DNA of 38,301 nucleotides from Xylanimicrobium pachnodae JCM 13526 = NBRC 107786. GTDB taxonomy: Bacteria > Actinomycetota > Actinomycetes > Actinomycetales > Cellulomonadaceae. Below are positions 17,504 to 36,198 of this stretch, one piece after another. The notes under the pieces are model-generated. The model was not told where the DNA came from, did not search any database, and saw only the letters and a list, made by a program, of their open reading frames with translations. The stretch lies in NCBI GenBank assembly GCA_001592145.1, contig BCWJ01000025.1, forward strand, positions 1 through 38,301, written 5' to 3'. Each line of letters opens with the position of its first letter. The stretch's first letter is position 1. Position numbers and translations under genes: made by a program.

Positions 17504-17531
17504 GGAGCAGGTTGAGCCTTCATCCCACATG
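17504..17531 (+). promoter_or_regulatory. Bipartite element GGAGCA-N14-CCCACATG
   Basis: This is a strong match to the right-region family. The ATG of the element is the first possible start of the downstream gene and is followed by ACTGGCATG, nearly the same as at 35177 (ACCGGCATG). No Shine-Dalgarno lies at normal distance. Confidence 0.75.
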
Positions 17532-17813
17532 ACTGGCATGACAACTTTGCTGAACTGGGTACTCGTGTTGGTCATCGTCGGAGGCTTCTTCGGGTGCGCG
17601 GTGAACTTCTTCCGCTGGCTGCTCCTGGTGCGCATCGGAAAGGCGCTCGGTGTTGCTGTGCTCACGGCGGCGCTTGGGGTCGCGGGGCTTGCGGTCCTGA
17701 TGAACTCGGTCATCAACGAGGTGGACCTGTCCCACACCAAGTCCGGGTGGGGGGTCGCCGTGCTGATGCTCGCTCTGTTCTGGTGGGCGCGGGTCTCCGA
17801 GTACGACGAGTAG
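17529..17813 (+). CDS. Small integral membrane protein (94 aa)
   Basis: Three hydrophobic segments are visible: WVLVLVIVGGFFGCAVNFF, ALGVAVLTAALGVAGLAVLM and WGVAVLMLALFWW. They are joined by short polar loops and end in an acidic tail (SEYDE). No family was recognised. Translation begins at the ATG inside the bipartite element or at the second ATG three codons on. Neither has a nearby Shine-Dalgarno, so a leaderless start is possible. It is the first gene of a plus-strand run that diverges from the pilus cluster. Confidence 0.8.
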   Translation: MTGMTTLLNWVLVLVIVGGFFGCAVNFFRWLLLVRIGKALGVAVLTAALGVAGLAVLMNSVINEVDLSHTKSGWGVAVLMLALFWWARVSEYDE

Positions 17814-17815
17814 GC

Positions 17816-17843
17816 GGACCAGGGCGGCTCCCCACCCCACATG
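17816..17843 (+). promoter_or_regulatory. Bipartite element GGACCA-N14-CCCACATG
   Basis: The element begins 2 nt after the stop of the membrane protein gene. Its ATG (17841) is in frame with the RNase H-like gene and would add 13 residues, although a strong ribosome binding site and ATG follow at 17880. Confidence 0.7.
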
Positions 17844-17879
17844 GAAGGCAATGCAGTCCCATGTGAAGGGAGACCCGTC

Positions 17880-18839
17880 ATGCCCGCCTCGTTGCACCCC
17901 ACCCCGAACGCCGTCGCGCACCGGATCGGTGCGGACCTCAAGGCGTCCGCGTCCACCTGCCGTGCGATGCGGGTCACCGACCTGATCCTGGCCGTCGCGG
18001 CCCGGCCCGGTGGCGGAGCGTGGTCCCTGTCTGCGCCTCAGGGCGCTGACGTGACCGTGCTCGCGCAGGGGGCCTGGCCAGACCTGCCGCTCGGCGCCTG
18101 GGACACCCCGATCAACGACCTGGAACGGGTGCTGGCCCAGGTGCACGACGTGTGCGGAGACGACATCCGGCTGTGCATCGGTGCGGACGTGTCCGGCACC
18201 GGCACGACCCCGCTGGCCCGGTGGGTGGCGAACCTGCGCGGACGGTACTCGCGCACGTCCCGTGCGTTCGAACTGACCCTGCTCGCGAACGCCGCGTGCC
18301 GGTCCCTGGCCGACCAGATCAGCCCAGTCACCCAGGTCGTGTACACCGACGGGTCCGCGTCCCGTGCCCGCAACCAGGGCGGGGCCGCCTGGGTAGCCGA
18401 GGACGGGCGGTTCGGCGCGTTCCCGGTCGACAACGGGATGCCGGTGGTCGCCGAGATGGCCGCGATCACCGCCGCGCTCAACGCGGTGCCCACCTGGGTG
18501 AGCACGGTCGTCATCTACTGCGACTCGCGTGAGGCGGTGCGCACCGTCAACGCGGTCCAGCGCACCGGGTCCACCACGGCGATCACCCGAGGGCCTGCCG
18601 AGCCGCTGGTCAAGGCGCTGCGCCGGGTCACCAAGCACACCCGCGTCGAGGTCAAATGGGTCAAGGGGCACCGGGGGAACCCGTTCAACGAGTGCGCGGA
18701 CCGGCTCGCCATCCTCGCCCGCCGCACCCACGACGCCGGGCTGGGTCAGGACGTGCTCGACGCGCGAGCCGCCGCGATCGTCGCTGAGACCATGCAAGCG
18801 GCTGGGACGGCGGACGGTGTGACCACGGTCGCGGCCTGA
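17880..18839 (+). CDS. RNase H-like protein (319 aa)
   Basis: The C-terminal half is an RNase HI fold. The four acidic residues are visible: D157 (VVYTDGSAS), E192 (VAEMAAI), D215 (IYCDSRE) and D274 (NECADRLA). The flexible-loop His is at 264 (VKGHRGN). These enzymes cut the RNA strand of RNA-DNA hybrids. The N-terminal roughly 150 residues are an additional domain that I do not recognise. The ATG has GGGAG at 7 nt; an in-frame ATG in the upstream element is an alternative start. On a mobile element it may remove primers or R-loops during replication. Confidence 0.9.
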   Translation: MPASLHPTPNAVAHRIGADLKASASTCRAMRVTDLILAVAARPGGGAWSLSAPQGADVTVLAQGAWPDLPLGAWDTPINDLERVLAQVHDVCGDDIRLCIGADVSGTGTTPLARWVANLRGRYSRTSRAFELTLLANAACRSLADQISPVTQVVYTDGSASRARNQGGAAWVAEDGRFGAFPVDNGMPVVAEMAAITAALNAVPTWVSTVVIYCDSREAVRTVNAVQRTGSTTAITRGPAEPLVKALRRVTKHTRVEVKWVKGHRGNPFNECADRLAILARRTHDAGLGQDVLDARAAAIVAETMQAAGTADGVTTVAA

Positions 18840-18843
18840 GCCC

Positions 18844-18872
18844 GGACAAGTAGGTGCGGCCCTCCCCACCAG
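18844..18872 (+). promoter_or_regulatory. Degenerate bipartite element GGACAA-N15-CCCACCAG
   Basis: A weaker match placed between the RNase H-like gene and the next small gene. The CCCGGACAAGTA part also occurs near the left end (about 120-135 and 246-259). Confidence 0.4.
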
Positions 18873-18903
18873 GTGGGTACGACCGACATCGAAGGAGCCC
18901 GCC

Positions 18904-19098
18904 ATGACCGCCACCCGCAAGACCTACCTGCACGCCCTGCCCGCCGAGGCGGTCCGGGAGCGCGCCGAGCATGCCCGCTCCGGTGCCGCCGGGATCCACT
19001 CCGACCAGCACACCCGCCGCGAGGGGGCGCTGCGCGGTAACCGTTCCCGCACCCGGGCCGCCCGCCTGCGCGCCGCGGTCGCCGATTCGCGCGGCTGA
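18904..19098 (+). CDS. Small basic protein (64 aa)
   Basis: The product is rich in Arg, Ala and His and probably helical. It has no membrane segment or recognisable domain. The ATG has a good AAGGAG ribosome binding site. The charge would suit nucleic acid binding, but no motif shows it. It ends 3 nt before the convergent metallophosphoesterase gene, with both stops in a small hairpin. Confidence 0.65.
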   Translation: MTATRKTYLHALPAEAVRERAEHARSGAAGIHSDQHTRREGALRGNRSRTRAARLRAAVADSRG

Positions 19099-19106
19099 CG
19101 TTCAGC
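19094..19106. terminator. Short hairpin between convergent genes
   Basis: GCTGA and TCAGC separated by 3 nt, spanning both stop codons. The stem is only 5 bp, so termination activity is uncertain. Confidence 0.3.
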
Positions 19107-19917
19107 AGCCTGGCAGGTCCGTGACCGTCCCGGTGGCCACATCCAGGACGACCGCGTTGCCGGAGGCGCCGTCGGCGCCCAGCGCCTCAACCCGGCAGGT
19201 GAACGGCACCCCGGGCGGCCCGGCGACCACCGTCGCGGTGTCCCGCACGTGGTAGTGCCCGTGGAACAGCACGGACGGGCGCACCGCGGTGAACGCCTCG
19301 GTGACCAGGGCGCGCCCCTGAGCGCAGTAGTCCAGCACCCGCGGGCTCCATGAGGAAGGCCCGGTAACGATCCGCTCTACGGCTCGGGTGCCCGGTTCGG
19401 GCGCGTCATGGATGAGCAGGTAGTCGGTGGGACCGCCCGCCGCCGTGCGGGCCACATCCGCGGCGGTGATCATCTCGCCCGGCCACCACGACCGGCCCGG
19501 CACCCGATACTCCCGGTCGATCGACGGCGCCCCGCCCAGGCTGGCGAACGTGTGGGCGGACCCGTCCGCTCCGGCCAAGACGAACCGGTGCCCGCGCGGC
19601 AGCACCGCCACGTGGTCGCTGAACCGGGCCACCGCCCCGAACCCGTCGCCACGGTCCGTGAGCGGATGCCCGACGATCTGGTCCCAGTCCTCGTGGTTGC
19701 CGGGCGTAACCAGGACCGTGATGCCCAGGTCCGAGCACACCGCGTCGACGTCGGTGAGGAACCCGATCCCGGACGGCCCCGGCCAGATCCCGAAGTCGCC
19801 GACATGCAGCACCAGGTGGCAGCCCGCACGAGCCGCCTGGCCAAGGACGTGCACCGCCCACCGGGTGTTCGCGTGCCAGTCTCCGGCCACCACGACCCGC
19901 CCCGCCGGAGCGGTCAC
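19102..19917 (-). CDS. Calcineurin-like metallophosphoesterase
   Basis: The 271-aa product shows the metal-binding motifs in order: GDWH (D13, H15), GDFG (D41), GNHED (N74, H75), a His in LLIHDAPE and GHYH near residue 215. This is the two-metal phosphoesterase fold that acts on phosphoester substrates such as nucleotides, RNA ends or phosphoproteins. The substrate cannot be read from sequence. The GTG start overlaps the stop of the small upstream gene (GTGA) and has GGAG at 8 nt. Phages and plasmids often carry such enzymes. Confidence 0.92.
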   Translation of the reverse strand: MTAPAGRVVVAGDWHANTRWAVHVLGQAARAGCHLVLHVGDFGIWPGPSGIGFLTDVDAVCSDLGITVLVTPGNHEDWDQIVGHPLTDRGDGFGAVARFSDHVAVLPRGHRFVLAGADGSAHTFASLGGAPSIDREYRVPGRSWWPGEMITAADVARTAAGGPTDYLLIHDAPEPGTRAVERIVTGPSSWSPRVLDYCAQGRALVTEAFTAVRPSVLFHGHYHVRDTATVVAGPPGVPFTCRVEALGADGASGNAVVLDVATGTVTDLPGC

Positions 19918-20084
19918 CGTGACGTCTCCGCCGCCCGGATCGCGGCCAGCGCGGCCACTAGACCGCCCGTGGCGGACGCGGCCCGGATCGGAGCCCACCA
20001 GGACTGAAGTCCGGGGTCGGTCAGGTACGCGGGCTCAACGACCGCCAGGACCGTGCCGGGGATCAGCCTCGAAGTCGTGCGCAT
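19914..20084 (-). CDS. Small protein coupled to metallophosphoesterase (56 aa)
   Basis: The product begins MRTTSRLIPGTVLAVV and ends in an Ala-rich helix. One weakly hydrophobic segment is present but no clear membrane helix. The ATG has an AGGAG ribosome binding site at 5 nt. Its TGA overlaps the GTG of the phosphoesterase gene, so the two are translationally coupled. An in-frame ATG in the upstream bipartite element would add 15 residues. No family was recognised. Confidence 0.65.
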   Translation of the reverse strand: MRTTSRLIPGTVLAVVEPAYLTDPGLQSWWAPIRAASATGGLVAALAAIRAAETSR

Positions 20085-20126
20085 GAGAACTCCTGGAGCG
20101 CCGGGACGTGCGCCCGGCCTGCCGGG

Positions 20127-20155
20127 CATGTGGGATGGGCGTCACCCGCTGGTCC
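20127..20155 (-). promoter_or_regulatory. Bipartite element GGACCA-N15-CCCACATG
   Basis: It lies upstream of the two-gene unit ending in the metallophosphoesterase and downstream of the gene at 20168. The ATG of the element is in frame with the small gene. Confidence 0.7.
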
Positions 20156-20167
20156 GGCGGCCCCGCC

Positions 20168-20443
20168 TCAGCGCGTCTCGGGGTTGGCCTTCTCGATGTG
20201 AATGATCGAGCCGCGCCCGTCCCGGATGATGTTGACCGTGTCGCCGGGTCGCACCGTGGCGAGCATCGCACCGACGGCCCCGATGGTGTTGGCGCGGTCC
20301 CGCAGGCCGTCCGCGCGCACCCAGGTGACCGTGTACCGGTCGTTGCCCCACCGGTCGGTGGCGCCGACCGCCAGGGCCCGGTGGTCGAGCAGCCGGGTGA
20401 TCGAGTCGAGGCGGACGTTGTACTGTTTGGCTCGGCTGCTCAC
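20168..20443 (-). CDS. Hypothetical protein (91 aa)
   Basis: The product has a basic N-terminus (VSSRAKQYNVRLDSITRLL) and a C-terminal beta-rich part (RPGDTVNIIRDGRGSIIHIEK). It is cytoplasmic by appearance and matches no family I know. The GTG follows GGAAGGA at 6-7 nt. It stands alone between two bipartite elements, so it is probably its own transcription unit. Confidence 0.7.
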   Translation of the reverse strand: MSSRAKQYNVRLDSITRLLDHRALAVGATDRWGNDRYTVTWVRADGLRDRANTIGAVGAMLATVRPGDTVNIIRDGRGSIIHIEKANPETR

Positions 20444-20491
20444 GATGGATCCTTCCGGGTGGCCGGGGCGCCTGCCGCCCCGCGCTGCACC

Positions 20492-20520
20492 CCTGTGGGG
20501 AGGGGACCGCCGGGTGCTCC
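20492..20520 (-). promoter_or_regulatory. Bipartite element GGAGCA-N15-CCCACAGG
   Basis: It is upstream of the 91-aa gene. The ATG position is changed (CAGG), but the first half and the GGTCCCC spacer match other copies well. Confidence 0.65.
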
Positions 20521-20547
20521 CGCCCAGTTTGCCGCGTGCGTGTGCGC

Positions 20548-23370
20548 TCACGCCCGGCGCTCGGTTCCGGGGTCGGTCAGGGTCAGGGGGAGCAGCACGT
20601 CGGGGATGGGGTCGGTGATGCCCGCCTTGGCGAGCGCCCCCGCGACGGTCATCCCGGTGAGGTCGACCCCCTGGTCGAGCAGGACGGCGATGGCGTACCG
20701 CACCGGGTGGTTGGTGGTCGCGCTGTCTTCGAACCGGGCGGTGTTCTCGACCGGTTTAGGGGCACGCCAGGACAGGGACTTGGCGTGGGTGGGCCACAAG
20801 GACTCGTCACCGTACTCGGCGATGAACTCCGCCTTTGCGTTCGCCTCGGCGGTGGCCTGCCATGCGGCTTCGAGCCCGAACGCGACCCTGCGCACCTGGT
20901 CGCGGGCGGTCTTGACGGCGGCGTTGTGCTCGCGGACCGTTTTGGTCCACTCCTCGGCGTCGGCCTGGGTTTGCGGGTCGGTGAACACGAGCCCGGCCTT
21001 CTCATCCCATGGGGCGCCTGGGGCACGAGTGATGAACGTGTCGGAGACGTTGGTGGTGGTCACGGACCCCCACCGGCTGCCCGGGGCTTCGACCATCGGG
21101 ACGCGGTTGCCCGTGAGGTCCCAACGCACTGTGTACTTGATGACGGTGACCTGCTTGATGTCCGACCATGCTGCGGGGCGCGGATCGCAGGTGATGTCCT
21201 GGTCGGGCAGCACCCACGCGGTGAACTCGCGTCGGTCGCGGTCCAGGGTGATGCCCAGGATGCGTCCGGCGTTGTGCTTGGGGCCGAAGTTCCTCCAGCC
21301 GTTGCTCGCCTGGACGGGGTGCTTGGCCAGGTGGGTCGGGACGTCCGTGCGTAGGGTGTTGGCGAATGAGGTGATCTCGTCGTCGGTCAGATCGGCGCCG
21401 GGGGTGGCGGCCAGGTTCCACGATTCCCAGGTGTCGGTGGCGTGCAGGATGCGGGTCGCGTTCATCCGGTTCCCGGGCAGCACCCACGACCGGTCCGTGA
21501 TGGTGCGTCCGGTCTTCGTCGTCGTGTACTCGGTCGCCCACACGTCCGGGGCGGCCACCGCCGCGTCGTAGGTGCGCGGCTGCGGGGCGTACGCGAGGTA
21601 CCCGCCGTTGCGCCTGCGCCCGATGACCATGATGGACGGGTCATGGGCCAGCAGGCTGGCTACCATCGCCGCTTCTCCGTCGGGGTCGGCGTCGCGGTGT
21701 GCGGCCAGACGCTTGCCGTACTCGTCCAGGATCATCCGGGTCGCTTTCGCCTCGGCCTTCGGGTCGGCCCCGGCGACCAGGGGGCGGTGCCACCGGTTGC
21801 CCAACTTCCACCAATCGACCAGCGCTGGCATCTCATCCTCGGCGGTGTGGGTGTCCACGTCGAACCGGGCGGCAGCCATCTGCGCCAGCAGCGCCCGGAA
21901 CGGGGCCTCAGCGGCAGCCTCGGCCTCCTTGGCTTCGATCGCGGCGTGCAGCAACGGCATCATCTGCTCGTACGCGTGCCGGTTGACGCGCGAGTTCAGG
22001 TAGTAGCGCATGTCCTCGACGCTGACGAGGTCGAACGGCAGGATGAACCGGTCCGTGGGCAGGATCGTGCAAGTGCCGCGCGTCTTGGGGGCACGCAGTT
22101 CCTCGGTGACCCGGCCCCGCTCGTCGGTGGTGCGAATCCACCGCTCTTTGGTGCGTTCGAACTTGAACGTGAGGCCCGACAGTGGCAGGCCCGGCGCGGT
22201 CGTCGCCCCGTCCAGCGTGTACAGGTGCGCGGTGCGCGGCTTGTCCGCCTCGTACTCGTTGCGTGAGCGAGGGGTGATCCGGTCGTTCGGGTAGTAGTGC
22301 GCGCCGTCGCGACCCTCCTCGCCCGCGTGCCGGAACTCGTCAGTGTTGAACACGCCCATGACCCGCATCCCAACTCTCAACTTCTTGTTGAGAGTTGCCA
22401 GCCAGTCGTAGAACCCCGGACGCCCGTCGGTCAGCAGCGCCTCCGCGTCCCGCACGAGGACGGCCTGCCCGGACTCATACGCCTGCCCCGAGAGCAGGTT
22501 GACCCGACCGACCATCGGTGCGAACACGGCGGTGCGGTCCACCAGGCCCTGGAGGATCATCGCCATACGCATGTAGTGCCGCTGTCGGGCACCCTGTCTC
22601 TTCTCGGCCTCATCCCACGCGAGGGTGCCGGGCTCCAGGTGCTCGACCTGTCCGTCCCAGCCGCGACGCACGAACAGGCCGGTGAACTCGTCCAACGCGG
22701 GGATCAGGTGCTTGCCGACGACGAAGTCGGTGCGCATCCGGTACAGGTTGTCCCCGTTACGGATCAGGAAGTACGTCCACCGGTTCTCGGCGTTCATCTT
22801 CTTGTTCGTCCACGGGTCGCCGTAGTCCCGGCCCCGCTTACGCGGCACCAACGCGACCATCCCGCGCGCCTCTGGCAGCACCCGGGCCAGGTTCTGCGGC
22901 TGCGCGATCCACGCGTCGAACACGTCCAGGTTGCGCCAGTCGATGCCGCCGTGACCGGCAGCCGCGGCGGTCTCCTCGTCCATCGAGAGCACCTGCTGAC
23001 GCAGGTGGATCGGCGTGTCCGCGGGGGCAGGCGCCCCGCTCGTCAGCCGTACGATCTCCTCGTTGCGGCCCAGGTACAGGTTCATCGACCAGATCACCTC
23101 GTTGGACTGGTCCACCTGCTCTTGGAGTGGGGCGATCAAGGCGCGCATCTGACGGACCTTGGCCTCCATCTCCGCTCGCATCGCCTCGGCCAGCGCTTCG
23201 ACTTCGCCCTGGGCGCGCAACGCCGCCGCCTTGGCCTGCGCAGCCTGCCGCTTGGCGACCACCGCCGCATCCCCGGCGGCGCCCGGCGCCGTCAGTTCGG
23301 TCGACGCCTCGACCCCCTGCGCGTCCTTCGCGATCTGGCGTGCCCGCGCCAGCGCGTCATCGAAGTCCAT
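20548..23370 (-). CDS. Large accessory-element protein of unknown function (940 aa)
   Basis: This is the largest gene of the accessory region. Residues about 35-95 are Ala/Glu/Arg-rich and likely coiled coil (AQAKAAALRAQGEVEALAEA). The rest is soluble and mixed alpha/beta, with a basic patch (VPRKRGRDYGD) and many Trp and Tyr. No membrane segment, P-loop or metal-binding motif was found. The length and coiled coil suggest a scaffold or nucleic-acid protein, but this is not supported by a motif. It is the last gene of a six-gene minus-strand group whose other members are small, and its ATG follows the upstream stop in the TGAGCGATG arrangement. Confidence 0.85.
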   Translation of the reverse strand: MDFDDALARARQIAKDAQGVEASTELTAPGAAGDAAVVAKRQAAQAKAAALRAQGEVEALAEAMRAEMEAKVRQMRALIAPLQEQVDQSNEVIWSMNLYLGRNEEIVRLTSGAPAPADTPIHLRQQVLSMDEETAAAAGHGGIDWRNLDVFDAWIAQPQNLARVLPEARGMVALVPRKRGRDYGDPWTNKKMNAENRWTYFLIRNGDNLYRMRTDFVVGKHLIPALDEFTGLFVRRGWDGQVEHLEPGTLAWDEAEKRQGARQRHYMRMAMILQGLVDRTAVFAPMVGRVNLLSGQAYESGQAVLVRDAEALLTDGRPGFYDWLATLNKKLRVGMRVMGVFNTDEFRHAGEEGRDGAHYYPNDRITPRSRNEYEADKPRTAHLYTLDGATTAPGLPLSGLTFKFERTKERWIRTTDERGRVTEELRAPKTRGTCTILPTDRFILPFDLVSVEDMRYYLNSRVNRHAYEQMMPLLHAAIEAKEAEAAAEAPFRALLAQMAAARFDVDTHTAEDEMPALVDWWKLGNRWHRPLVAGADPKAEAKATRMILDEYGKRLAAHRDADPDGEAAMVASLLAHDPSIMVIGRRRNGGYLAYAPQPRTYDAAVAAPDVWATEYTTTKTGRTITDRSWVLPGNRMNATRILHATDTWESWNLAATPGADLTDDEITSFANTLRTDVPTHLAKHPVQASNGWRNFGPKHNAGRILGITLDRDRREFTAWVLPDQDITCDPRPAAWSDIKQVTVIKYTVRWDLTGNRVPMVEAPGSRWGSVTTTNVSDTFITRAPGAPWDEKAGLVFTDPQTQADAEEWTKTVREHNAAVKTARDQVRRVAFGLEAAWQATAEANAKAEFIAEYGDESLWPTHAKSLSWRAPKPVENTARFEDSATTNHPVRYAIAVLLDQGVDLTGMTVAGALAKAGITDPIPDVLLPLTLTDPGTERRA

Positions 23371-23373
23371 CGC

Positions 23374-24057
23374 TCAGCCCTCCCCGATCCGCGCAGAGTC
23401 GGCGCGAATGTGACCAGCCAGGTCGCCCATAACGGCCTTGCGGCGCTGCTCATACCGCGCCCGGAGGTAGGGGCTGGCTATGTCGGCGCGCGCATCACGC
23501 AGCAGATCGAGCGCCACTTCCATTGCCGTCCGATGGCCCGCCACATCGCGCCCCGGGATGCGAGACACAGCCTCGCGCAGCCGTACACGACGGCGGGACC
23601 AACGTTGCGCACCCTCGGCCTGACCGCCGAAACGAGAGTCGTCCAGCAGCATCACGGCGGCGTCGAGCATCCTCCGATCAACGATGTTGTGGTGGCCTTC
23701 TGCAGGAGGTGCCAGCAGTCGCCCCTCCTTGGGCACGTCGCGCACGACGCCGGGTTCATCGCGCAGGTCGGTCCAGCCCACCGTGTACCAGCCGCGCGAG
23801 TCGCGACGGCGCCCGTACACCTCGCGGGTGTGACGCTGGAGCGTGCCACCCTCGTACAGTCGATCCTCGAACGCCAGCACGTAACCGGGGTCGCCCTGGA
23901 CGCCCTTGTGCTGGACGGCGGCAACGGCCTCCTGCGCGTCCGTGAACTCCCCGACGGTGTACCGAGGCCCCAGCCCGTCGGACTGGTTCGTGTCGCCCTG
24001 CGCGATGAACCCCGACCCGACCACCGCGTACGCGCCGCTGGCGCTCAGCCTGCTCAT
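23374..24057 (-). CDS. Hypothetical protein (227 aa)
   Basis: A soluble protein with a Gly-rich N-terminal part (GAYAVVGSGFIAQGDTN) and a basic helical C-terminal half. No domain was recognised. It ends in Glu-Gly because its last codons form the Shine-Dalgarno of the next gene, and the 940-aa gene starts 3 nt after its stop. This implies tight co-translation with that protein and perhaps a joint function. Confidence 0.75.
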   Translation of the reverse strand: MSRLSASGAYAVVGSGFIAQGDTNQSDGLGPRYTVGEFTDAQEAVAAVQHKGVQGDPGYVLAFEDRLYEGGTLQRHTREVYGRRRDSRGWYTVGWTDLRDEPGVVRDVPKEGRLLAPPAEGHHNIVDRRMLDAAVMLLDDSRFGGQAEGAQRWSRRRVRLREAVSRIPGRDVAGHRTAMEVALDLLRDARADIASPYLRARYEQRRKAVMGDLAGHIRADSARIGEG

Positions 24058-24060
24058 CGC

Positions 24061-24384: not shown

Positions 24385-24420
24385 CGGTCAGCCCTTCTCT
24401 TCCGTGCTGGTGGCCTTGCG

Positions 24421-24974: not shown

Positions 24975-24977
24975 CGC

Positions 24978-25480: not shown

Positions 25481-25508
25481 CATGTGGGGCGGGCGCCAGG
25501 GCTGCTCC
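25481..25508 (-). promoter_or_regulatory. Bipartite element GGAGCA-N14-CCCACATG
   Basis: Strong match upstream of the six-gene unit ending at 20548. ACAGTC follows the ATG, as in several other copies. Confidence 0.75.
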
Positions 25509-25954: not shown

Positions 25955-25957
25955 CGC

Positions 25958-27362: not shown

Positions 27363-27390
27363 CATGTGGGTAGGGACCTGCGGGTGCTCC
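27363..27390 (-). promoter_or_regulatory. Bipartite element GGAGCA-N14-CCCACATG
   Basis: Strong match with the GGTCCC spacer and a GCAGTCAG extension. It is upstream of the unit 27315-25523. Confidence 0.8.
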
Positions 27391-28121: not shown

Positions 28122-28149
28122 TCCCGGAGGAGGGACCTGCTGGTGCTCT
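28122..28149 (-). promoter_or_regulatory. Degenerate bipartite element upstream of toxin-antitoxin pair
   Basis: AGAGCA and the CCAGCAGGTCCCTC spacer match the other copies closely, but the second half (CTCCGGGA) has diverged. It may be a decayed copy replaced by the local promoter. Confidence 0.45.
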
Positions 28150-28471: not shown

Positions 28472-28540
28472 GAGGTGTGTTCCTTCGCTGCTGGTCTTGC
28501 TCGTGGTGAGGTGCGGGAATCGGCGCTGTTCCAGGTCTAG

Positions 28541-29229: not shown

Positions 29230-29276
29230 GTGACTCCTTCGAGGTGGTGGCGAGGCTGGACGCTACCGCTGACTGC

Positions 29277-29304
29277 TATGTGGGACGGGAACCGACGCTG
29301 CTCC
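29277..29304 (-). promoter_or_regulatory. Bipartite element GGAGCA-N14-CCCACATA
   Basis: Strong match apart from ATA in place of ATG, followed by GCAGTCAG as at 27363. The natural loss of the start codon shows that the element does not need to act as a translation start here. Confidence 0.75.
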
Positions 29305-29339
29305 GGGTCCCGGACGAGCCTGGCTTGCGCCCGAGTGGG

Positions 29340-29822: not shown

Positions 29823-29870
29823 GGTCGCATCCTTGTCTGTTCGGCAGGGCTGGTCGCCCTCACTGACTGC

Positions 29871-29899
29871 TCTGTGGGGTGGGGACCGGGAACTGCTTC
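29871..29899 (-). promoter_or_regulatory. Bipartite element GAAGCA-N15-CCCACAGA
   Basis: A good match with CGGTCCCC in the spacer and GCAGTCAG after the second half. The ATG position reads AGA. Confidence 0.65.
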
Positions 29900-29905
29900 G
29901 AACGC

Positions 29906-30202: not shown

Positions 30203-30245
30203 GTTGTCTCCCTCGATACCTTCCTCGGCCAGTAGGTTCGACGCT

Positions 30246-30758
30246 GTGCGCAAGCGAGTCATTGCAGTCCTGCTCGCCGTCGTCGTCGCCGGTGCGGGGG
30301 TCGGGGGTTGGGCCTGGTGGCAGCATCAGACCGCCTCCGGGGTGGATCAGGTGCTGACCATCGTGGGCCGTTCCGAGGCGGACCTGATCGCGTTCAACGA
30401 CTGGTACGCCAAGCAGGAGGCCAACGCCGCGACAGCGGACGACCCGCAGGCGTGGGCGCAGAAGTTCATCACGGCGCTGCAAGCACAGGGGCGTATGCAC
30501 CTGGCGACAGCGCTGGTCAACGAGCACGACCTGCGCGCGCTGACGGTGACCGGCACGGGCGACGACCTGCGTGACGCGTACCTCGATCACCTCTCCGCGT
30601 GGGAGGCCAACTTCAAGAACATGTCCGCCGAGGTGCCGAAGGTCGACGGGCACGACGCGGAGATCAGCGCCTCGTGGACGATCTTCACCCGCACCGCTCA
30701 GGAGGCGGATGTGACCGAAGATCAGCGGACGCGGCTGGACAAGATCGTCGCGGGCTAA
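30246..30758 (+). CDS. Membrane-anchored or secreted protein (170 aa)
   Basis: The N-terminus has a basic start and a hydrophobic segment (VIAVLLAVVVAGAGVGGWAWW), a signal anchor without a lipobox cysteine. The rest is helical with acidic and Trp residues, located outside the membrane. No family was recognised. The GTG start has AGTAGG at 9 nt. It diverges from the 98-aa gene and converges with the next gene, overlapping its stop by 4 nt. Confidence 0.75.
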   Translation: MRKRVIAVLLAVVVAGAGVGGWAWWQHQTASGVDQVLTIVGRSEADLIAFNDWYAKQEANAATADDPQAWAQKFITALQAQGRMHLATALVNEHDLRALTVTGTGDDLRDAYLDHLSAWEANFKNMSAEVPKVDGHDAEISASWTIFTRTAQEADVTEDQRTRLDKIVAG

Positions 30759-31051
30759 CGCCCGGCGCTGGCCAGACCGACCAGGCGGGTGCGGCGCTCG
30801 GCCCACGACCGCTGCGAGGTCGGGTGGTCGAAGATGCTGACCGACTGGCCCAGCAGCGTCTCAGCCTGGCCGAAGACCTCGGTGGGCGTGGACGCCACCT
30901 TCTCTCCGAGGTGCAGCAGGGTCATCGAGGTGAACAGTGCGGCGCGCCGGTGCGCCCAGGTACGGTCGCCCGGGTCGGCGGGGCGCGCGTCGGACAGCAG
31001 GTCGCGGGCGTCACGCAGCAGCGAATCGGTGCGGGCGTCGTCGTGCAGCAA
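30755..31051 (-). CDS. Hypothetical protein (98 aa)
   Basis: A helical soluble protein rich in Arg, Asp and Leu (RTDSLLRDARDLLSDARPADPGDR). No family was recognised. The TTG start has AGGAG at 6 nt. No clear bipartite element lies upstream in the roughly 150-nt spacer (31052-31205), where I see nothing else certain. Confidence 0.65.
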   Translation of the reverse strand: MLHDDARTDSLLRDARDLLSDARPADPGDRTWAHRRAALFTSMTLLHLGEKVASTPTEVFGQAETLLGQSVSIFDHPTSQRSWAERRTRLVGLASAGR

Positions 31052-31205
31052 ACGGGTCTCCTAAGGGTTGGGGGCGGTCATGCGGCGCCTAACGGGTGCG
31101 GGCCGAGGGGACGTCAACTGTTGCCGCAGCGGTGCCGGGTGGCGCCAGGTAGCGTCAGTCGGCGCGGGTTGTGGCCTGTTGCGTGAACGGGGTTGTGTCG
31201 GGTGT

Positions 31206-31233
31206 GGATCAGGTTGTGGTCTCGTCCCACATG
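31206..31233 (+). promoter_or_regulatory. Bipartite element GGATCA-N14-CCCACATG
   Basis: Strong match in front of the tnpB leader ORF. The ATG is followed by ACGGGTGTG, similar to the copies at 17504 and 35177. Confidence 0.7.
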
Positions 31234-31323
31234 ACGGGTGTGAGGCGCGTGGAGGGTGACCGCATTGTGGTGGCCTTGGTGCGTGTGGAGGGTGTGTGGG
31301 GGGAGGTTGGGTTTCCTTGTTGA
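31231..31323 (+). CDS. Short ORF (30 aa) leading into tnpB
   Basis: The ORF begins at the ATG of the bipartite element and ends at a TGA that overlaps a TTG start of tnpB. The peptide MTGVRRVEGDRIVVALVRV ends FPC. It may be a leader peptide, or the first part of an older gene now frameshifted relative to the N-terminal extension of TnpB. No function is known. Confidence 0.4.
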   Translation: MTGVRRVEGDRIVVALVRVEGVWGEVGFPC

Positions 31324-32963
31324 TCGAGGCGCGTACGCATGCACAGGCTGCCGCTATTGCGCGGGTCAGTGGTGGGGTGCGTCTCACGCGCGTCACCGGT
31401 GATGGTGAGGTCAAGGAGACCCGGCAGGTCCGGGTGCCCGATTTCGAGGCTGTGAGCGCCCAGGTCGAGGCAGTCACGCTCATGTTCCGCCTGTATGACG
31501 AAACCCCGGACGGGCTGGTGCAGGTTGGTAACGGGTGGTCGTTTCGCGGGTACAAGTTCGAGGTCGCCTGGCCCCAGGAGGCCGAGCGCCGCGACCTGAT
31601 CCGCGGGCATTTCGGGGCCTGTCGTAAGGCGTACAACGTGGCGTTGGGGTGGGTTAAGGACGACCTGGACGCGAGAGCGAAGGACCCGAAGCACGAGTCC
31701 ACGCCGTGGCGGATGGACGCGCTGCGGCTGCGGTGGAACACGCAGAAGAACCAGGTTGCGCCGTGGTGGGCGGAGTACTCCAAGGAGGCGTACGCGGCAG
31801 GCATCGCGGACCTGGCGACGGCGCTGAAAAACTGGTCGGCGTCGAAGCATGGCACCCGCAAGGGCCGCAGGGTCGGGTTCCCGAGGTTCAAGTCGAAGCG
31901 CACCGCGCGCAAGTCCGTCCGGTTCACCACCGGCGTGATGCGCTTGGGTGAGGACCGGCGCACGATCGTGCTGCCCAGGATCGGGGCTTTGCGTTCGAAG
32001 GAGAACACGCGTGCGTTGCAGCGCCGCCTGGCCAAGGGTGACGCCCGCATCCTGTCGATGACGCTGTCCGAGCATGCGGGCCGCTTGTTCGTGTCCGTGC
32101 AGGCCGCCGTGCGCGCCACTCCGGTCGTTGCCCCGGCCTACCCGGACGCGACCGCTGGGGTTGACGTCGGGATGCGGACGCTGGCGACCGCTTCTGATTC
32201 TCTCGGCCACACGGTCGAGTTCGAAAACCCTCGCGCGTACAAGGCCGCATTGGTCGAACTGCGCCGCGAGCAGCGCAAACTAGCGCGGCGTCTGCCCGGC
32301 TCGCGCGGGTACGAGCGGTCGAAAGCCAAGACCGCCCGCCTGCACGAACGGGTCAGCAACATCCGCCGCGCACACCACCACCAGGTCGCGACCTGGCTGG
32401 TGGGCACGTACGGGCACGTCGTGATCGAAGACCTCGCCGTGTCCGCCATGATGCAAAGCCTCAACCGCCGCTTCCGCCGCTGCGTAGCGGACGCGGGCAT
32501 GGGCGGCCTGCTCGCCTTGATCGCCTTGAAGGCGGACAAGACCGGCACCCAGGTCACCCGCGCCGACCGGTGGTTCCCGTCCTCGCAGATCCACCACGGC
32601 TGCGGGTGCATCCTGACCGACCCTCACCCCTCATTCCGTGGGGCAAGGCCGGTCAAGATGTCCAAGGCCCTGGTCTGTATCCGTACCGGCGAACTCGTCG
32701 ATCGTGACGTGAACGCCGCACACAACCTCCGTGACTGGCCGGAGGGTAATCCGTCAGTCCTGGCTCAGTTGGAGCCAGCGCCCCGCCCGGTAGCCGTGAC
32801 AGCACCCGCTGCCACGGTCGGCGGACCGGAAAAGGTAACCAACCCCGATCTGGTGAGTGCCCGTAAATCGGTGACGAAGAAGCCCGCACCTAGTGCTGGT
32901 CGAGCCGCCGTCAGGCGTGATGAGGCGAGAACCGACCCGAACCTCGCAGCCCCGGCTGCGTAA
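31317..32963 (+). CDS. tnpB: TnpB RNA-guided nuclease (IS605/IS607 type), N-terminal extension
   Basis: TnpB is the transposon-encoded ancestor of Cas12, guided by an omega RNA. With a TTG start the product has 548 aa. The TnpB part begins near GYKFEVAWP; about 85 preceding residues are foreign to the family. RuvC residues are D283 (AGVDVGM), E371 (VIEDLAV) and D464 (DRDVNAA). The zinc-ribbon segment is unusual (IHHGCGC, then LVCIRTGEL), a variant of the usual CxxC pairs. A GGGGAGG lies 10 nt before the TTG. No transposase or clear transposon ends are visible nearby. Only 29 nt separate it from the next gene, so any omega RNA must overlap its 3' end. It may be a stranded or domesticated copy. 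Confidence 0.88.
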   Translation: MLIEARTHAQAAAIARVSGGVRLTRVTGDGEVKETRQVRVPDFEAVSAQVEAVTLMFRLYDETPDGLVQVGNGWSFRGYKFEVAWPQEAERRDLIRGHFGACRKAYNVALGWVKDDLDARAKDPKHESTPWRMDALRLRWNTQKNQVAPWWAEYSKEAYAAGIADLATALKNWSASKHGTRKGRRVGFPRFKSKRTARKSVRFTTGVMRLGEDRRTIVLPRIGALRSKENTRALQRRLAKGDARILSMTLSEHAGRLFVSVQAAVRATPVVAPAYPDATAGVDVGMRTLATASDSLGHTVEFENPRAYKAALVELRREQRKLARRLPGSRGYERSKAKTARLHERVSNIRRAHHHQVATWLVGTYGHVVIEDLAVSAMMQSLNRRFRRCVADAGMGGLLALIALKADKTGTQVTRADRWFPSSQIHHGCGCILTDPHPSFRGARPVKMSKALVCIRTGELVDRDVNAAHNLRDWPEGNPSVLAQLEPAPRPVAVTAPAATVGGPEKVTNPDLVSARKSVTKKPAPSAGRAAVRRDEARTDPNLAAPAA

Positions 32964-32989
32964 GGCGGGAAAGAACCTCGAAAAGAGGT
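32946..32989. terminator. Two hairpins after tnpB
   Basis: GCAGCC/GGCTGC (32946-32959) spans the tnpB stop region, and ACCTC/GAGGT (32975-32989) has a GAAAA loop. They lie between convergent genes and could be a shared terminator or part of an omega RNA fold. Confidence 0.5.
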
Positions 32990-32992
32990 GCG

Positions 32993-33430
32993 TCAGAAGA
33001 GAGGGCTTACGCTATCCGACACTCTGGCGCAACGGACGTACTCGAACGACAGGTCGGCGACCGCAGCGATGTGCTCGAAGTCGTGGTCACAGGCGAGGAC
33101 GGTCGCGTCGTTGAGCATCGCGTACGCGGCGATCAGGATGTCGGTCGGCCCGGCTGCGCGGAACCTGCCGTGTTCCCAAAGTGCCTGCTGGATGTCGCAA
33201 ACCAGCGACTCCTCAGGATGCCTGTCCAGCGGGAATCCGAGGCTGATCTGCGCCCGATACCGAGCGTACTGTCCCGGCGGTGCACTGTGGCAGAACTCCA
33301 GCACCTGGGGTGGGCAGGTCACGAACTGGTCGGACGGTGTCCGCTCGATGTGGTTCAGGCGGGTGACCACGCGAGCATCGCGCTGAACGAAACGTGACCA
33401 CGCAGAGTTGTCGACGAGGAAGTCGGTCAC
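32993..33430 (-). CDS. vapC: PIN-domain toxin VapC
   Basis: The 145-aa product has the PIN residues D7 (FLVDNSAW), E45 (VLEFCHS), D97 (PTDILIAAYA) and D115 or D117 (CDHDFEHIA). It should be an RNase acting on structured RNA. The GTG lies 12 nt past the antitoxin stop, with a weak ribosome binding site. That fits lower toxin than antitoxin output. Confidence 0.92.
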   Translation of the reverse strand: MTDFLVDNSAWSRFVQRDARVVTRLNHIERTPSDQFVTCPPQVLEFCHSAPPGQYARYRAQISLGFPLDRHPEESLVCDIQQALWEHGRFRAAGPTDILIAAYAMLNDATVLACDHDFEHIAAVADLSFEYVRCARVSDSVSPLF

Positions 33431-33442
33431 CGCGCGGCCGAG

Positions 33443-33646
33443 TCACCGGGGGAGCACTGTCGGAGCGCCGAGCCCTGCGGGGAGGTCCTCTAGGGCGGCG
33501 ATTCCGTCCAGCATGGCCCGCTTCTGCTTCGATGCGATCAGGCGCCGCAGAGCCAGATCAACGACGGCCCTGTTGGACGAGGTGCCAGTAAGTTCCCTGG
33601 CCTGCGCCACGAGATCGAGGTTCAGATCGATGGTCGTGATTGGCAT
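33443..33646 (-). CDS. vapB: VapB antitoxin
   Basis: The 67-aa protein has a ribbon-helix-helix-like N-terminus (ITTIDLNLDLVAQARELTGTSSNRAVVDLALRRLI, in part) and a short C-terminal tail for toxin binding. This arrangement is typical of actinobacterial VapB. The ATG has AGGAGG upstream and an AT-rich promoter region that stands out from the surroundings. Confidence 0.88.
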   Translation of the reverse strand: MPITTIDLNLDLVAQARELTGTSSNRAVVDLALRRLIASKQKRAMLDGIAALEDLPAGLGAPTVLPR

Positions 33647-33663
33647 GACGGATCCTCCTAAGC

Positions 33664-33690
33664 CTATGTATACGCGATTATATAACTGGA
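33664..33690 (-). promoter_or_regulatory. AT-rich promoter/operator of vapBC
   Basis: TATAAT (minus strand, 33677-33682) and GTATAC close by form an AT-rich island in very GC-rich DNA. The two TATA-containing halves may be VapB operator arms. No clear -35 box is visible. Confidence 0.6.
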
Positions 33691-33709
33691 GGTCGTGGCA
33701 CGCCTGCGC

Positions 33710-35179
33710 TCACGCAGCGTCATCTTCGCCCGGTGCCCCGTACAGGGACACGGCCAGCGGCACGTCCCGTCGGGTGCGCCGTCGGTCGTGCTGGCCCACG
33801 TCGCCGGGCGTCGCGGCGGTGTCACGGATCAGGGTCAGCCGGTCCCCGCGCCACAGGCCCGCGGTCGAGCAGCGCAACCGCACCAGCACGTCCCCGTCGT
33901 GCACAGCGACCTCGGTGACCACGGCGCGGGTGCGCCCATCCCGGGTCACCAACCGGTCCCCGACGCGCGGCTCACCCGCCGCCACCGTGAAGTTGAACCG
34001 GCCCGGACCGCGGTAAGCGACTTCCAAGGCGGGACGGACCCGGACACGGGCCGGAGGGAGCACTGCGCCGGGGTCACCGAGCAGCGCCGTGTGGACCGCG
34101 AGGTGTGCGTCCCGTACCGCCGGGTCCGCGATGGTGGCGGTCAGCCACGACCACGCTGCGGGGATGATCACGCTCAGGTGGGCGCGGTGCCGGGTCAGCG
34201 CGGTGCGCAGCGCGGACAGGGTCAGGTCGGTGGTGTCGGTCAGCGGGTCCAGCAGGATTACCGAGTCCCAGGTGCGTCCGACCGTGTCCGCGACCGGCAG
34301 CACCGCCACGTCACGGACCGCCCACATCTCGGCGAACACGGCGCGCACGGCGGCGGTCTGCCGGGTCGAGTTCGTCACCACCACCAGGCGGGTGACGTCC
34401 AGGGGGTAGGTCACTGGGGAGTTGCCCGGTCCGGTGCTGTGCACCGTCGCGCCCAACAGCGTCTTGACCCGGGCGGCAGCGATCCGGGCCAGCCCGGCAT
34501 GGTCGAGGACGGTGGCGTCCGCTGCGAGGGTGAGCACCTCCGGGTGCCCATCGAGGTGGGGTGCGGACGGGTCAGCCTCCGGTTCGTCGGCGGTGAGCAG
34601 TCCGAGCAGGGAGGCGGTCACCGGCCCGGTGCGGGTTTCGGACGCGACCGGGACGACAACGGTGACCCCTGGTGCACAGGTCGGGGACGGCCACGGGTGC
34701 GCCGCGTCCGCAACCAGCACCATCTGCCGGGCGTACCGGGCGACACGGGCCACCGTCGGGTGGGTGGGCGGCACCTCGACGGTGACCACGACCGCGTCGA
34801 ACACGGACTGCGGGGCGCCCACGAACGTGTCCAGGGCGCGCACCGTGAACGCCGCCGAATGAGTGGTCAGGACCGGGGCGATCCGGGCGCGCAGGTCGTC
34901 GGTGAGCGCGGTCGTGGCGGCCACCACGATCACGGTCAGGTCCGCGTCCCGGATCAGGCGGGTCACCAGATCGGCCACCCAGGTCGGCGTGTCCGTGCCG
35001 GGAGCGTGCGGGACGTGCACGTACCGGGTGCCGCGCCACGTCTCGAACAGCGCCCGCGCCAGCGCGGACCCCGCCACCAGCCCGGCCAGCCCGTCAACCG
35101 GGACCGGGCGGGCCGCCTCGACAGGGGCGGGAGCGGGGGCCGGGACGCCGAGATCGGGGAGGGTGAGCATGCCGGTCAT
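33710..35179 (-). CDS. Degenerate SF1-helicase-like protein (489 aa)
   Basis: The layout resembles a UPF1-type SF1 helicase, but catalytic motifs are lost. HAPGTDTPT (58-66) stands where Walker A (GxxGxGKT) is expected. FDAVVVTVEV stands for Walker B without DE. RQMVLVADAAHPWPSP stands for the GDxxQLPP motif. C-terminal counterparts include VVVTNSTRQTAAVRAVF, TWDSVILLDPL and LSALRTALTRHRAHLSVIIP. It is probably not an ATPase and may act as a nucleic-acid binding or regulatory partner. The ATG at 35179 is in the bipartite element, with no near Shine-Dalgarno; a second ATG follows three codons later. The assignment is by eye and moderate. Confidence 0.7.
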   Translation of the reverse strand: MTGMLTLPDLGVPAPAPAPVEAARPVPVDGLAGLVAGSALARALFETWRGTRYVHVPHAPGTDTPTWVADLVTRLIRDADLTVIVVAATTALTDDLRARIAPVLTTHSAAFTVRALDTFVGAPQSVFDAVVVTVEVPPTHPTVARVARYARQMVLVADAAHPWPSPTCAPGVTVVVPVASETRTGPVTASLLGLLTADEPEADPSAPHLDGHPEVLTLAADATVLDHAGLARIAAARVKTLLGATVHSTGPGNSPVTYPLDVTRLVVVTNSTRQTAAVRAVFAEMWAVRDVAVLPVADTVGRTWDSVILLDPLTDTTDLTLSALRTALTRHRAHLSVIIPAAWSWLTATIADPAVRDAHLAVHTALLGDPGAVLPPARVRVRPALEVAYRGPGRFNFTVAAGEPRVGDRLVTRDGRTRAVVTEVAVHDGDVLVRLRCSTAGLWRGDRLTLIRDTAATPGDVGQHDRRRTRRDVPLAVSLYGAPGEDDAA

Positions 35180-35205
35180 GTGGGGCGGGGACCGGCCCCT
35201 GATCC
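35177..35205 (-). promoter_or_regulatory. Bipartite element GGATCA-N15-CCCACATG
   Basis: Strong match between the caspase-like gene and the SF1-like gene, followed by ACCGGCATG as at 17529. The ATG is the likely start codon. Confidence 0.75.
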
Positions 35206-35207
35206 GG

Positions 35208-35792
35208 TCACGCGGCGCGCACGCAGTCCCAACCGCCCTGCTGGTACTTCGGCAACCGGTCCCAGAAGGCGTCCGGTTCGAACTCGCCGTGCGCGAACGG
35301 GCGAAGCACGTACTTCCAGACCAACCGGTTCGCGTCCGCGCCGTACGTGAGGCGGCGGGACGCGACAACCGGAGTGCCGGGCACCACCAGGTTCGCCCAC
35401 TCCTCGCGGGCGCGACCGGCGTAGCAGGAACCGATCACCAGCAGGCCGGGCGCAACCGCGTGGGACCGGTCGAACTTCGCCGGGTAGAACGAACCGCCGC
35501 ACACCGTGCCGTCCACCCGGTCGCACCCGCTGAACCAGTACGGGCGCGTCCGCGAACCGTGCCCGTCAAGGTACACCGCCGTCTGCGGACCGATCCGGGT
35601 GCGGTACGCGGCCAACTCGGTGGCCAGGGAGTCGAAGTGGATCGGGTCGGGTGGCCCGAGCAGGGTGAGTCCGGCCTCCCCGGCGGCGAGGCGACGGCGC
35701 ACCTGGTCGGCGTATCGCATCGGCAGCCACGACTCCTCGGTACCGTCCTCCCGGACCGGGGTGAGCATCACGACGTTGCGAGGATTCGGCAT
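35208..35792 (-). CDS. Caspase-like (clan CD) peptidase candidate
   Basis: The 194-aa product has the caspase dyad in the expected setting: H78 in AVYLDGHGS and C123 in LLVIGSCYAGRA, each after a hydrophobic beta strand, 45 residues apart. Caspase-fold peptidases in bacteria often act in phage defence and programmed death. It is small and has no fused sensor domain. The ATG has no clear ribosome binding site and lies 11 nt after the stop of the upstream gene, so it may be coupled to it. Neighbours are a 108-aa protein and the SF1-like protein. The peptidase assignment is from motifs only. Confidence 0.72.
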   Translation of the reverse strand: MPNPRNVVMLTPVREDGTEESWLPMRYADQVRRRLAAGEAGLTLLGPPDPIHFDSLATELAAYRTRIGPQTAVYLDGHGSRTRPYWFSGCDRVDGTVCGGSFYPAKFDRSHAVAPGLLVIGSCYAGRAREEWANLVVPGTPVVASRRLTYGADANRLVWKYVLRPFAHGEFEPDAFWDRLPKYQQGGWDCVRAA

Positions 35793-35802
35793 TCGGGCAT
35801 GA

Positions 35803-36129
35803 TCAGACGAGGCCCAGCGCCTCGTCCACGAGCCACGCCCCGATCATCGCGTCGATGTCCGAAATCGCCCGGTCGATGCCCGCATGCGTGAACGGGTACA
35901 CGACGTGCGAGCGCGGGTGCTCCAGCGTGCCCACCCGCACGTCGATGCCGTCGTCGTCGAGCACCACGGTCACCCCCGCCAGCGGGTCCTTGCGCAGGCA
36001 GATTCCGGCGACATCGCAGTCGAAGCCGCGCGGGTGGTGAAGGTGCTGGGCGACGGGGCCGTAGCCCTCCAACGCGTTCAGGAAGCAGATCAGGGTGGCC
36101 AGGCGGTCGGGTCGGCTGGTGTCGGTCAT
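35803..36129 (-). CDS. Hypothetical protein (108 aa) before caspase-like gene
   Basis: A soluble alpha/beta protein (GVTVVLDDDGIDVRVGTLEHPRS in part, ending VDEALGLV). No family was recognised. The ATG has CGGAGGA upstream. It is probably the first gene of a unit with the caspase-like gene and could be its partner or regulator by position. Confidence 0.7.
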   Translation of the reverse strand: MTDTSRPDRLATLICFLNALEGYGPVAQHLHHPRGFDCDVAGICLRKDPLAGVTVVLDDDGIDVRVGTLEHPRSHVVYPFTHAGIDRAISDIDAMIGAWLVDEALGLV

Positions 36130-36167
36130 GGGGGTCCTCCGGGGACGCGGTGGAAACTGCGGTCACC

Positions 36168-36198
36168 GCGGTGGGGTGCGCCCCGGCGGACGTGCTCT
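36168..36198 (-). promoter_or_regulatory. Degenerate bipartite element AGAGCA-N17-CCCACCGC
   Basis: A weak copy with a longer spacer, upstream of the unit containing the caspase-like gene. Confidence 0.35.

Follow-up and report, generated by a model that had tools for sequence, protein, structure and literature searches.

A promoter-like element dispersed over a probable actinobacterial megaplasmid and a putative divergent sigma factor that may read it

A two-box DNA element recurs between genes in the window analysed here, which is the entire contig BCWJ01000025.1 (38,301 nucleotides (nt); C25 below) of the 4.0-Mb, 79-contig genome of Xylanimicrobium pachnodae JCM 13526. An initial annotation, made from the letters of this contig, had described the element as GGANCA followed at a distance of 14-15 nt by a second box, had placed it before nearly every transcription unit, and had proposed that it might mark the regulon of a sigma factor or activator specific to the element. 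The 11 non-degenerate places named there were recovered on the same strands and at the same coordinates; the consensus is exact in seven of them, carries one mismatch at 4829, 20492 and 29277, and carries three mismatches at 29871. Scored with a two-block position matrix (box gap 13-16 nt; iterative training on the 11 contigs described below, window copies included), all 11 reach 18.8-32.3 bits. The copies, here listed as predicted promoters, and the open reading frames (ORFs) behind them are as follows.

4829..4856, minus strand: promoter copy with −35 CGATCA and −10 CACATG, 27.4 bits
4822, minus strand: leaderless ATG, 6 nt after the box of copy 4829..4856, opening ORF 4822-4085
17504..17531, plus strand: promoter copy, 30.5 bits; leaderless ATG at 17538 opens ORF 17538-17813
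17816..17843, plus strand: promoter copy with a 5′ leader, 32.3 bits, before an RNase H domain gene
17880 (called start) to 18839 (end): RNase H domain gene behind copy 17816 (Pfam RNase_H)
20127..20155, minus strand: promoter copy with a 15-nt box gap, 31.7 bits, before 20084-19914
20492..20520, minus strand: weak promoter copy (CCCACAGG), 18.8 bits, before 20443-20168
25481..25508, minus strand: promoter copy, 29.6 bits, before 25433-24978
27363..27390, minus strand: promoter copy, 24.8 bits, before 27315-27022
29277..29304, minus strand: promoter copy, 30.5 bits, before 29229-28897
29871..29899, minus strand: promoter copy (CCCACAGA), 23.1 bits, before 29822-29340
31206..31233, plus strand: promoter copy, 30.0 bits, before a TnpB (IS605 OrfB) gene, TnpB by Pfam
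35177..35205, minus strand: promoter copy with a 15-nt box gap, 31.1 bits; leaderless ATG at 35170 opens ORF 35170-33710

Twenty first-order Markov simulations of the window produced a single match of at least 18 bits in total, compared with 11 in the real sequence. The plain consensus with three mismatches allowed performed far less well, giving 24 matches against approximately 17 expected for each gap length, barely above chance and reached by 7 and 3 of 100 shuffles for the two gap lengths; the evidence therefore rests on the matrix and on the near-exact copies. Three degenerate copies proposed earlier did not survive this scoring (4.4 bits at 18844, negative scores at 28122 and 36168), and the statement that nearly every transcription unit is preceded by the element proved too strong. 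A site lies at 10 of the 26 window gene starts that have an upstream gap of at least 35 nt, and across all 11 contigs the corresponding figure is 71 of 186, approximately 40%.

Exact matches to the pattern were confined to eight contigs of the genome (C20, C24, C25, C29, C30, C32, C33 and C47), and motif-like matches with one mismatch added C36, C40 and C43. The resulting 11 element contigs amount to 317,865 bases and have a G+C content of 0.69-0.74 (highest in C47, at most 0.71 in the others), compared with 0.72-0.74 in six 20-kb stretches of chromosome. At thresholds of 12 and 18 bits the element contigs hold 84 and 77 sites, while the 120 kb of chromosome hold three and none, respectively, so the similar chromosomal density that would speak against a dedicated regulon is not seen. 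Twenty further contigs, sampled for up to 20 kb each, likewise contained no site of at least 18 bits. A sequence-only model built from 73 sites was then used across the whole genome, with 150 of 4092 first-look candidates scored. All 72 matches at E<0.05 lay on the element contigs, as did 80 of the 89 at E<=1, and the first match elsewhere had E=0.0585. Since the 73 training sites match by construction, the informative part of this search is the absence of matches elsewhere. When the model was applied to 221 genomes of the family, with 30 candidates scored in each, 31 genomes had a match at E<=0.02, and the only strong match outside the source genome was a single copy in a genome of the same genus (G211:C2:79970, E=2.4e-5; next best 8.8e-4). 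This near-perfect copy (G211:C2:79970-80004, L060) stands before a small ORF on an 88.6-kb contig.

The 77 sites of at least 18 bits reveal a fixed geometry. When open frames of at least 60 codons downstream were considered, the start codon began exactly 6 nt (25 sites) or 7 nt (5 sites) after the hexamer CACATR, such that 30 of 77 sites are leaderless; no other distance up to 46 nt occurred more than three times, and a second group was found at 47-55 nt. Immediately behind a 6-nt gap stands a purine in 72 of 77 sites (A in 48, G in 24). The layout GGANCA, 16/17-nt spacer, CACATR, N6, purine falls within sigma-70-class spacing (16-18 and 6-8 nt), and the fixed leaderless start distance led to the assignment of GGANCA as −35, of 16/17 nt as spacer and of CACATR as −10. 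Assuming transcription from the start codon onwards, CACATR would occupy positions −12 to −7, with GGANCA at −35 and an invariant A at −11. This A is present in every one of the 84 matrix-selected sites, and the −11 A is likewise invariant in sigma-70 −10 boxes. Leaderless promoters of the main actinobacterial sigma factor carry TANNNT as −10, 6-7 nt before the start codon; the element promoters share this distance but differ in having CACATR and a conserved −35. An alignment of 27 leaderless copies from −52 to the start showed that nothing apart from both boxes and the region of the start codon is conserved, and no canonical TANNNT is conserved beside the motif. Two sets of words that the initial annotation had associated with the boxes can accordingly be reassigned, ACNGGCATG being the leaderless start codon region and GCAGTCAG belonging to copies with a 5′ leader downstream. 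Orientation with the next gene, previously given as invariable, holds for 76 of the 77 sites, and location between transcription units for 72, while four sites overlap a called gene in sense and one in antisense. The motif is real, is dispersed over the element and is very probably a promoter.

The replicon on which these promoters lie is probably a megaplasmid. In the plasmid collection, the best relatives of its DnaE and of a 940-amino-acid (aa) protein (window 20548-23370) include megaplasmids of 266-608 kb from Curtobacterium, Arthrobacter and relatives, Frondihabitans, Euzebya, Rhodococcus and mycobacteria, and on this basis the 11 contigs are read as megaplasmid. They are most likely pieces of one megaplasmid of approximately 318 kb, and would then form a single replicon. 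The contigs encode gyrase A and B, RtcB, DNA polymerase III alpha, ribonucleotide reductase, NAD ligase, further nucleotide and RNA-repair families, and ParA-like ATPases. An array of 38 tRNA genes predicted by ARAGORN (C20:33437-43479, L010:13437 to L011:3479; one anticodon unsure) is interrupted by the RtcB RNA-repair gene and is preceded by tandem motif copies at C20 33328 and 33386. Motif copies also stand before the DnaE, gyrase B, ligase, ParA-like and primase-like genes.

The initial annotation had suggested looking for a sigma or DNA-binding gene elsewhere on the element; the candidate is a putative, very divergent sigma-70-like protein, C32:16726-17625 (299 aa). This candidate was reached through comparison of the element's proteins with those of plasmids pACHL01 and pS16 together with the annotation of pACHL01, in which its relative ACHL_RS22105 is recorded as 'HTH (helix-turn-helix) domain-containing protein'; annotated records name the gene either in this way or as 'hypothetical protein'. 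The pACHL01 protein found relatives by tblastn in eight of 72,556 plasmid records (pACHL01, pYJN5-1, zg-Y1110, BIM B-2242, A. caoxuetaonis and three Curtobacterium plasmids), four of which are reached with the element's own protein. Among ten family members examined with Pfam, Sigma70_r3 was matched in nine and Sigma70_r4 and r4_2 in five at E<1, the best Sigma70_r3 match having E=1.2e-4 and 22.5 bits, under the cut-off of 25.3. A profile search of PDB sequences placed FliA (1rp3, E=0.0015) first and also returned SigA entries, with a designed coiled-coil protein (E=0.0018) ranked between the two. The A. terrae member (L195) was modelled from three sequences as an all-helical protein (mean predicted local distance difference test (pLDDT) 71.7, predicted template modelling score (pTM) 0.43). 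A Foldseek search with this model returned 215 matches, and all of the 50 listed are RNA polymerase-sigma entries, mostly chain F, which we take to be sigma by convention; the best has E=2.9e-4 and probability 1.0, at a template modelling (TM) score of 0.23 and with domains not superposed. The profile, the Pfam region 3 matches and Foldseek thus point weakly but consistently to a sigma identity.

Two other proteins were considered and rejected. A local profile of 12 host sigma proteins, used together with Pfam Sigma70_r2/r4 across the whole genome, gave no credible sigma factor on the element; the weak local lead, C29:15580-16317, is a cpYpsA protein. W12_359771, which matched the family profile at E=0.0066, is by eye an ordinary sigma factor. 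Viral contigs scanned with single proteins yielded no relative. A tree of the sigma-like family has long branches, and no claim is based on it.

In five Arthrobacter-group plasmids the sigma-like gene lies in a conserved order: a ParA-like ATPase, a protein of ~350 aa, a protein of 133-167 aa, the sigma-like protein and a protein of ~1050 aa. In pYJN5-1 a kinase gene is inserted ahead of the last, and in the element described here parts of the cluster are split between C30 and C32. The 133-167-aa protein is annotated in three of the five plasmids; by eye it resembles an actinobacterial IHF, which Pfam did not confirm, returning nothing useful for that protein.

Sigma-like gene and promoter sites occur together, sharing contig C32 in this element and one complete plasmid record in pACHL01 and others. 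Of 12 related megaplasmids examined with a 10-member profile, six have the family; no member was found in the Euzebya, Frondihabitans, Rhodococcus, Streptomyces NBC_01462, M. intracellulare and Tsukamurella plasmids. The promoter comparison covered five of the latter, all but the Streptomyces plasmid, and showed no such promoters in them. A model search of the 12 related plasmids, which gave nothing at E<0.01 and weaker matches in 8 of 12 (best 0.013), first suggested that the motif was unique to this element. This was abandoned when dyads counted de novo in the upstream regions of genes of the related MEGAPLASMIDS gave strong but different families in pACHL01 and in Curtobacterium pS16, indicating that related plasmids have promoter letters of their own. 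The same counts recovered the element's own motif as a positive control and gave no promoter family in the Rhodococcus plasmid.

Counts of k-mers anchored on start codons showed ACACAT at −13 in pACHL01 (82 versus 2.3 expected), CACACA at −14 in pYJN5-1 (26 versus 0.6) and GCATAG in pS16 (at −13; 70 versus 2.7) and pCPAA3 (15 versus 0.5). In eight of nine sets with a sigma-like gene (pACHL01, pYJN5-1, A. caoxuetaonis, BIM B-2242, pS16, pCPAA3, D40 and this element) the highest-scoring anchored word was a −10-like hexamer placed at −12, −13 or −14, compared with none of six sets without one (five plasmids and stretches of the host's own chromosome); in the Frondihabitans plasmid a Shine-Dalgarno-like word took its place. 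CACATR or CATAG was found 6-8 nt before a start codon 21 times in D40, 33 in pCPAA3, 12 in A. caoxuetaonis and 24 in pYJN5-1 (100 kb each), 9 in zg-Y1110 and 16 in BIM (41 kb each), and 88 in pACHL01 and 119 in pS16 (400 kb each). Counts in the negative sets were 0-3 for the four of 100 kb, 1 for the 120 kb of chromosome and 9 for 300 kb of the Rhodococcus plasmid. The −35 also differs, being CGG.GA at −38 to −33 in pACHL01 versus GANCAG at −33 to −28 in this element, and no clear −35 was seen in the Curtobacterium sets. The Curtobacterium plasmids have two −10 classes, CACAT and CATAG, and pS16, pCPAA3 and D40 each encode a second, shorter family member; the two classes may be related to these extra members. 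In each Curtobacterium plasmid, two places in addition to the two longer sigma-like members match only approximately the last third of the family profile.

Beyond the plasmids, the other 220 genomes of the family include 12 with homologues at E<1e-45, and four more family-profile matches (E<1e-44) were found in the same order (G626, G774, G829, G861). Searches of the class, family and order also gave matches to the profile that are weaker than E=1e-15. Three of the 12 genomes are single contigs (G169, G171 and G043). Promoters were sought in G168, G169 and G171. The G168 homologue lies on a 185-kb contig, of which 120 kb were taken; this stretch has a G+C content of 0.67-0.71, shares 25 proteins with the element and includes the conserved cluster, and at a distance of 8 nt CATAG precedes eight start codons and GTCAAC nine. 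G168 is a further, weaker case of sigma-promoter association. No member of the sigma-like family was found in G211. A 224-aa protein without a Pfam match (C30:226-900, L016:226-900) has a homologue beside the sigma homologues in G169 and G171, and its gene also neighbours the sigma cluster on pACHL01 and in G168; it is a possible regulator of the sigma-like gene.

These results are consistent with a model in which each copy would be a bacterial promoter with −35 GGANCA(G), a 16/17-nt spacer and −10 CACATR at −12 to −7, transcription probably starting at the purine 6-7 nt further on, which in many copies opens a leaderless start codon. Host RNA polymerase core, directed by the megaplasmid-encoded divergent sigma-70-family factor C32:16726-17625, most likely reads these sites, and related megaplasmids would each have their own version of factor and promoter. 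The geometry, the confinement to the element and the joint occurrence of gene and promoters are seen directly in the sequences; the point of transcription initiation, the sigma activity of the protein and its reading of these sites are inferred. From sequence comparison, we assign a probability of approximately 0.72 to the reading that the copies are promoters recognized by the element's own divergent sigma factor. The suggestion of an element-specific sigma or activator regulon thus gains support, and its sigma version, with a predicted function, is favoured by the fixed leaderless distance, by the 16/17-nt spacer, by the confinement of the sites to the element and by the divergent sigma-like gene located there.

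Several observations weigh against this reading. The element's own protein is among the most divergent in the family, its region 4 being by eye the least clear, and its Pfam result is Sigma70_r3 alone (E=0.031); the two members with bit scores listed reach no Pfam cut-off. PF04542 (Sigma70_r2) has no match on the element contigs, and Sigma70_r2 is absent among the 25 of 33 Pfam families listed for the ten members. The folded protein is a relative modelled from three sequences, the Foldseek match has a TM score of 0.23, and only four of the 50 listed Foldseek rows (215 in total) have E<=0.001. No promoter site directly precedes the sigma-like gene. In zg-Y1110 (41 kb) the −10-like word is not the top one. 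D40, A. caoxuetaonis and BIM B-2242 give a weak k-mer signal, with scores no higher than those of the best unrelated words in some negative sets; these three are set apart by the word, its position and the gap count. The same-family homologues count here as well: in G169 and G171 no such promoter word occurs within ~70 kb on either side of the homologue, and the location of homologues in these single-contig genomes means that the sigma-like family is not strictly plasmid-borne. Finally, the plasmids without the sigma gene are more distant relatives, so the co-occurrence partly reflects shared ancestry.

Alternatively, the boxes could be promoters of a host alternative sigma factor, for example of the extracytoplasmic function (ECF) type, to which the plasmid has adapted. 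GGANC resembles an ECF −35, and the genome has 12 Sigma70_r2 matches, none of them on the element contigs. However, ECF promoters have a gap of 16-17 nt, compared with 12 nt here between GGANC and CGTC. Outside the element contigs no match at E<0.05 was obtained among the candidates scored, which would leave such a factor without clear chromosomal targets of this kind. C26 and C38, the contigs with ECF-like genes, gave no model match at E<=1 among the same 150 of 4092 candidates and no site of at least 12 bits in 20 of the 35 kb of C26 or in the whole of C38, and this explanation is distinctly improbable. It is also unlikely that the motif is bound by an element-encoded activator or repressor whose site overlaps a promoter used by the host main sigma factor, although the plasmid-only motif of pMP7017 offers a parallel, with 19 copies over a canonical −10 and a GTCCACATA stretch resembling GTCCCACATA in the portions of that report used here (PMC10832533). 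In the 27 leaderless copies aligned from −52 no canonical TANNNT is conserved beside the motif, and the box spacing and start distance match those of a −35 and −10 themselves.

A further explanation, an element-encoded RNA polymerase such as some giant phages have, would suit a very large element with DNA polymerase, gyrase and 38 tRNA genes. We consider it very improbable: DFDGD is present in none of 352 predicted proteins (a single-subunit polymerase was not searched for specifically), the looser D.DGD occurs in four proteins in contexts that are by eye unlike a polymerase, and the spacer and −11 A are sigma-like. Scarcely any weight is given to the motif being an RNA-level or recombination signal repeated between genes rather than a promoter; it is indeed repeated and mostly intergenic, but the 6-7 nt spacing to the start codon in 30 of 77 sites fits a leaderless promoter and would go unexplained for a recombination site.

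Reading by the element's own sigma factor can be compared with two published systems, each considered here from part of its report. By analogy, the closest precedent appears to be SigN (ZpdN) of Bacillus subtilis pBS32, experimentally shown to be a plasmid sigma factor with plasmid promoters, which drive gyrase, DNA Pol III and nucleotide synthesis genes among others (PMC6751061). Both systems combine a sigma factor with promoters on the same plasmid (PMC6751061), all three being predicted in the present case. They differ in host phylum and, by eye, in promoter letters (TTTACGTTT and GATATAA in Table 2 of that report); SigN is also LexA-repressed, with 17 promoters measured and two predicted versus the 77 predicted sites described here (PMC6751061). 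The second system, the conjugative megaplasmid pMP7017 of Bifidobacterium breve, has a 34-bp plasmid-only motif in promoter regions, absent from bifidobacterial chromosomes, with 19 copies predicted to drive 56 genes (PMC10832533). Like the present element, a probable megaplasmid, it comes from an actinobacterium and has a tRNA array and a plasmid-only promoter-region motif. Its authors take the motif to be bound by a transcription factor, with the site lying over a canonical −10; the element promoters have no conserved TANNNT beside the motif; compared by description, the sections used here name no sigma factor and do not use the term 'leaderless' (PMC10832533). The earlier remark that no such promoter family is known calls for qualification: the present class is found in neither precedent as far as these sources were drawn on, but a plasmid-restricted promoter-region motif (pMP7017) and a plasmid sigma regulon (pBS32) have been published. 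Among the titles listed in searches of open-licence literature, none deals with a sigma factor or promoter family of these megaplasmids. To our knowledge, plasmid sigma regulons are known from few cases.

One promoter class thus precedes core genes of a chromosome-like plasmid, including those for DNA polymerase, gyrase and the 38-gene tRNA array, and the promoter code differs between related plasmids. It is an even chance that these observations reflect a private, orthogonal transcription class in an actinobacterial megaplasmid family, in which a fast-diverging sigma factor and largely leaderless promoters co-evolve. Each plasmid lineage would then have its promoter code (CACATR, ACACAT, CATAG and GTCAAC types), and replication, tRNA, DNA-metabolism and transfer genes would be expressed independently of host promoters, so that plasmids of this family may have a transcription programme to themselves within their hosts. 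If the sigma factor does read these promoters, co-evolution of promoters with their sigma factor could be tested in this family, which would also supply orthogonal promoter/sigma pairs for use in actinobacteria and help to re-annotate start codons on these poorly annotated plasmids.

Several further features of the element were observed. The promoter-holding stretches at window 31206-31377 and C29 (L014) 19089-19144 are closely similar in alignment, and each precedes a large ORF; in the C29 stretch a leaderless ATG opens a 455-codon frame, while the GTG frame of the window counterpart stops after 27 codons. The plasmid's promoter may thus be carried by an insertion element. T2SSE, FtsK-like and AAA_10 ATPases are encoded on the element, and the LAGLIDADG homing-endonuclease domains inside these three (window 325-3642; L025:13317-18875, a weak match in the FtsK-like protein; L022:5933-10423) are therefore probably inteins. 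Very large repetitive proteins are encoded at window 4867-14276, L018:2-2344 and L021:15003-20000, with DUF285 repeats on C32 and C36 and repeat units of ~261 nt and ~75 nt in the window. A separate 25-nt repeat (GGCTCTCACCGGGCACCATGCGCAG, 80-100% alike) occurs at window 4055, 11800, 14309, 14499 and 17411, the last copy ending ~70 nt before the promoter at 17504, and its core is also found at approximately C32:19476-19630. Lastly, the window contains a duplication, 14684-15104 / 15460-15880, with a spacing of 776 nt and copies 82-92% alike in two blocks; the duplication takes in most of two similar genes for proteins of ~167 aa.

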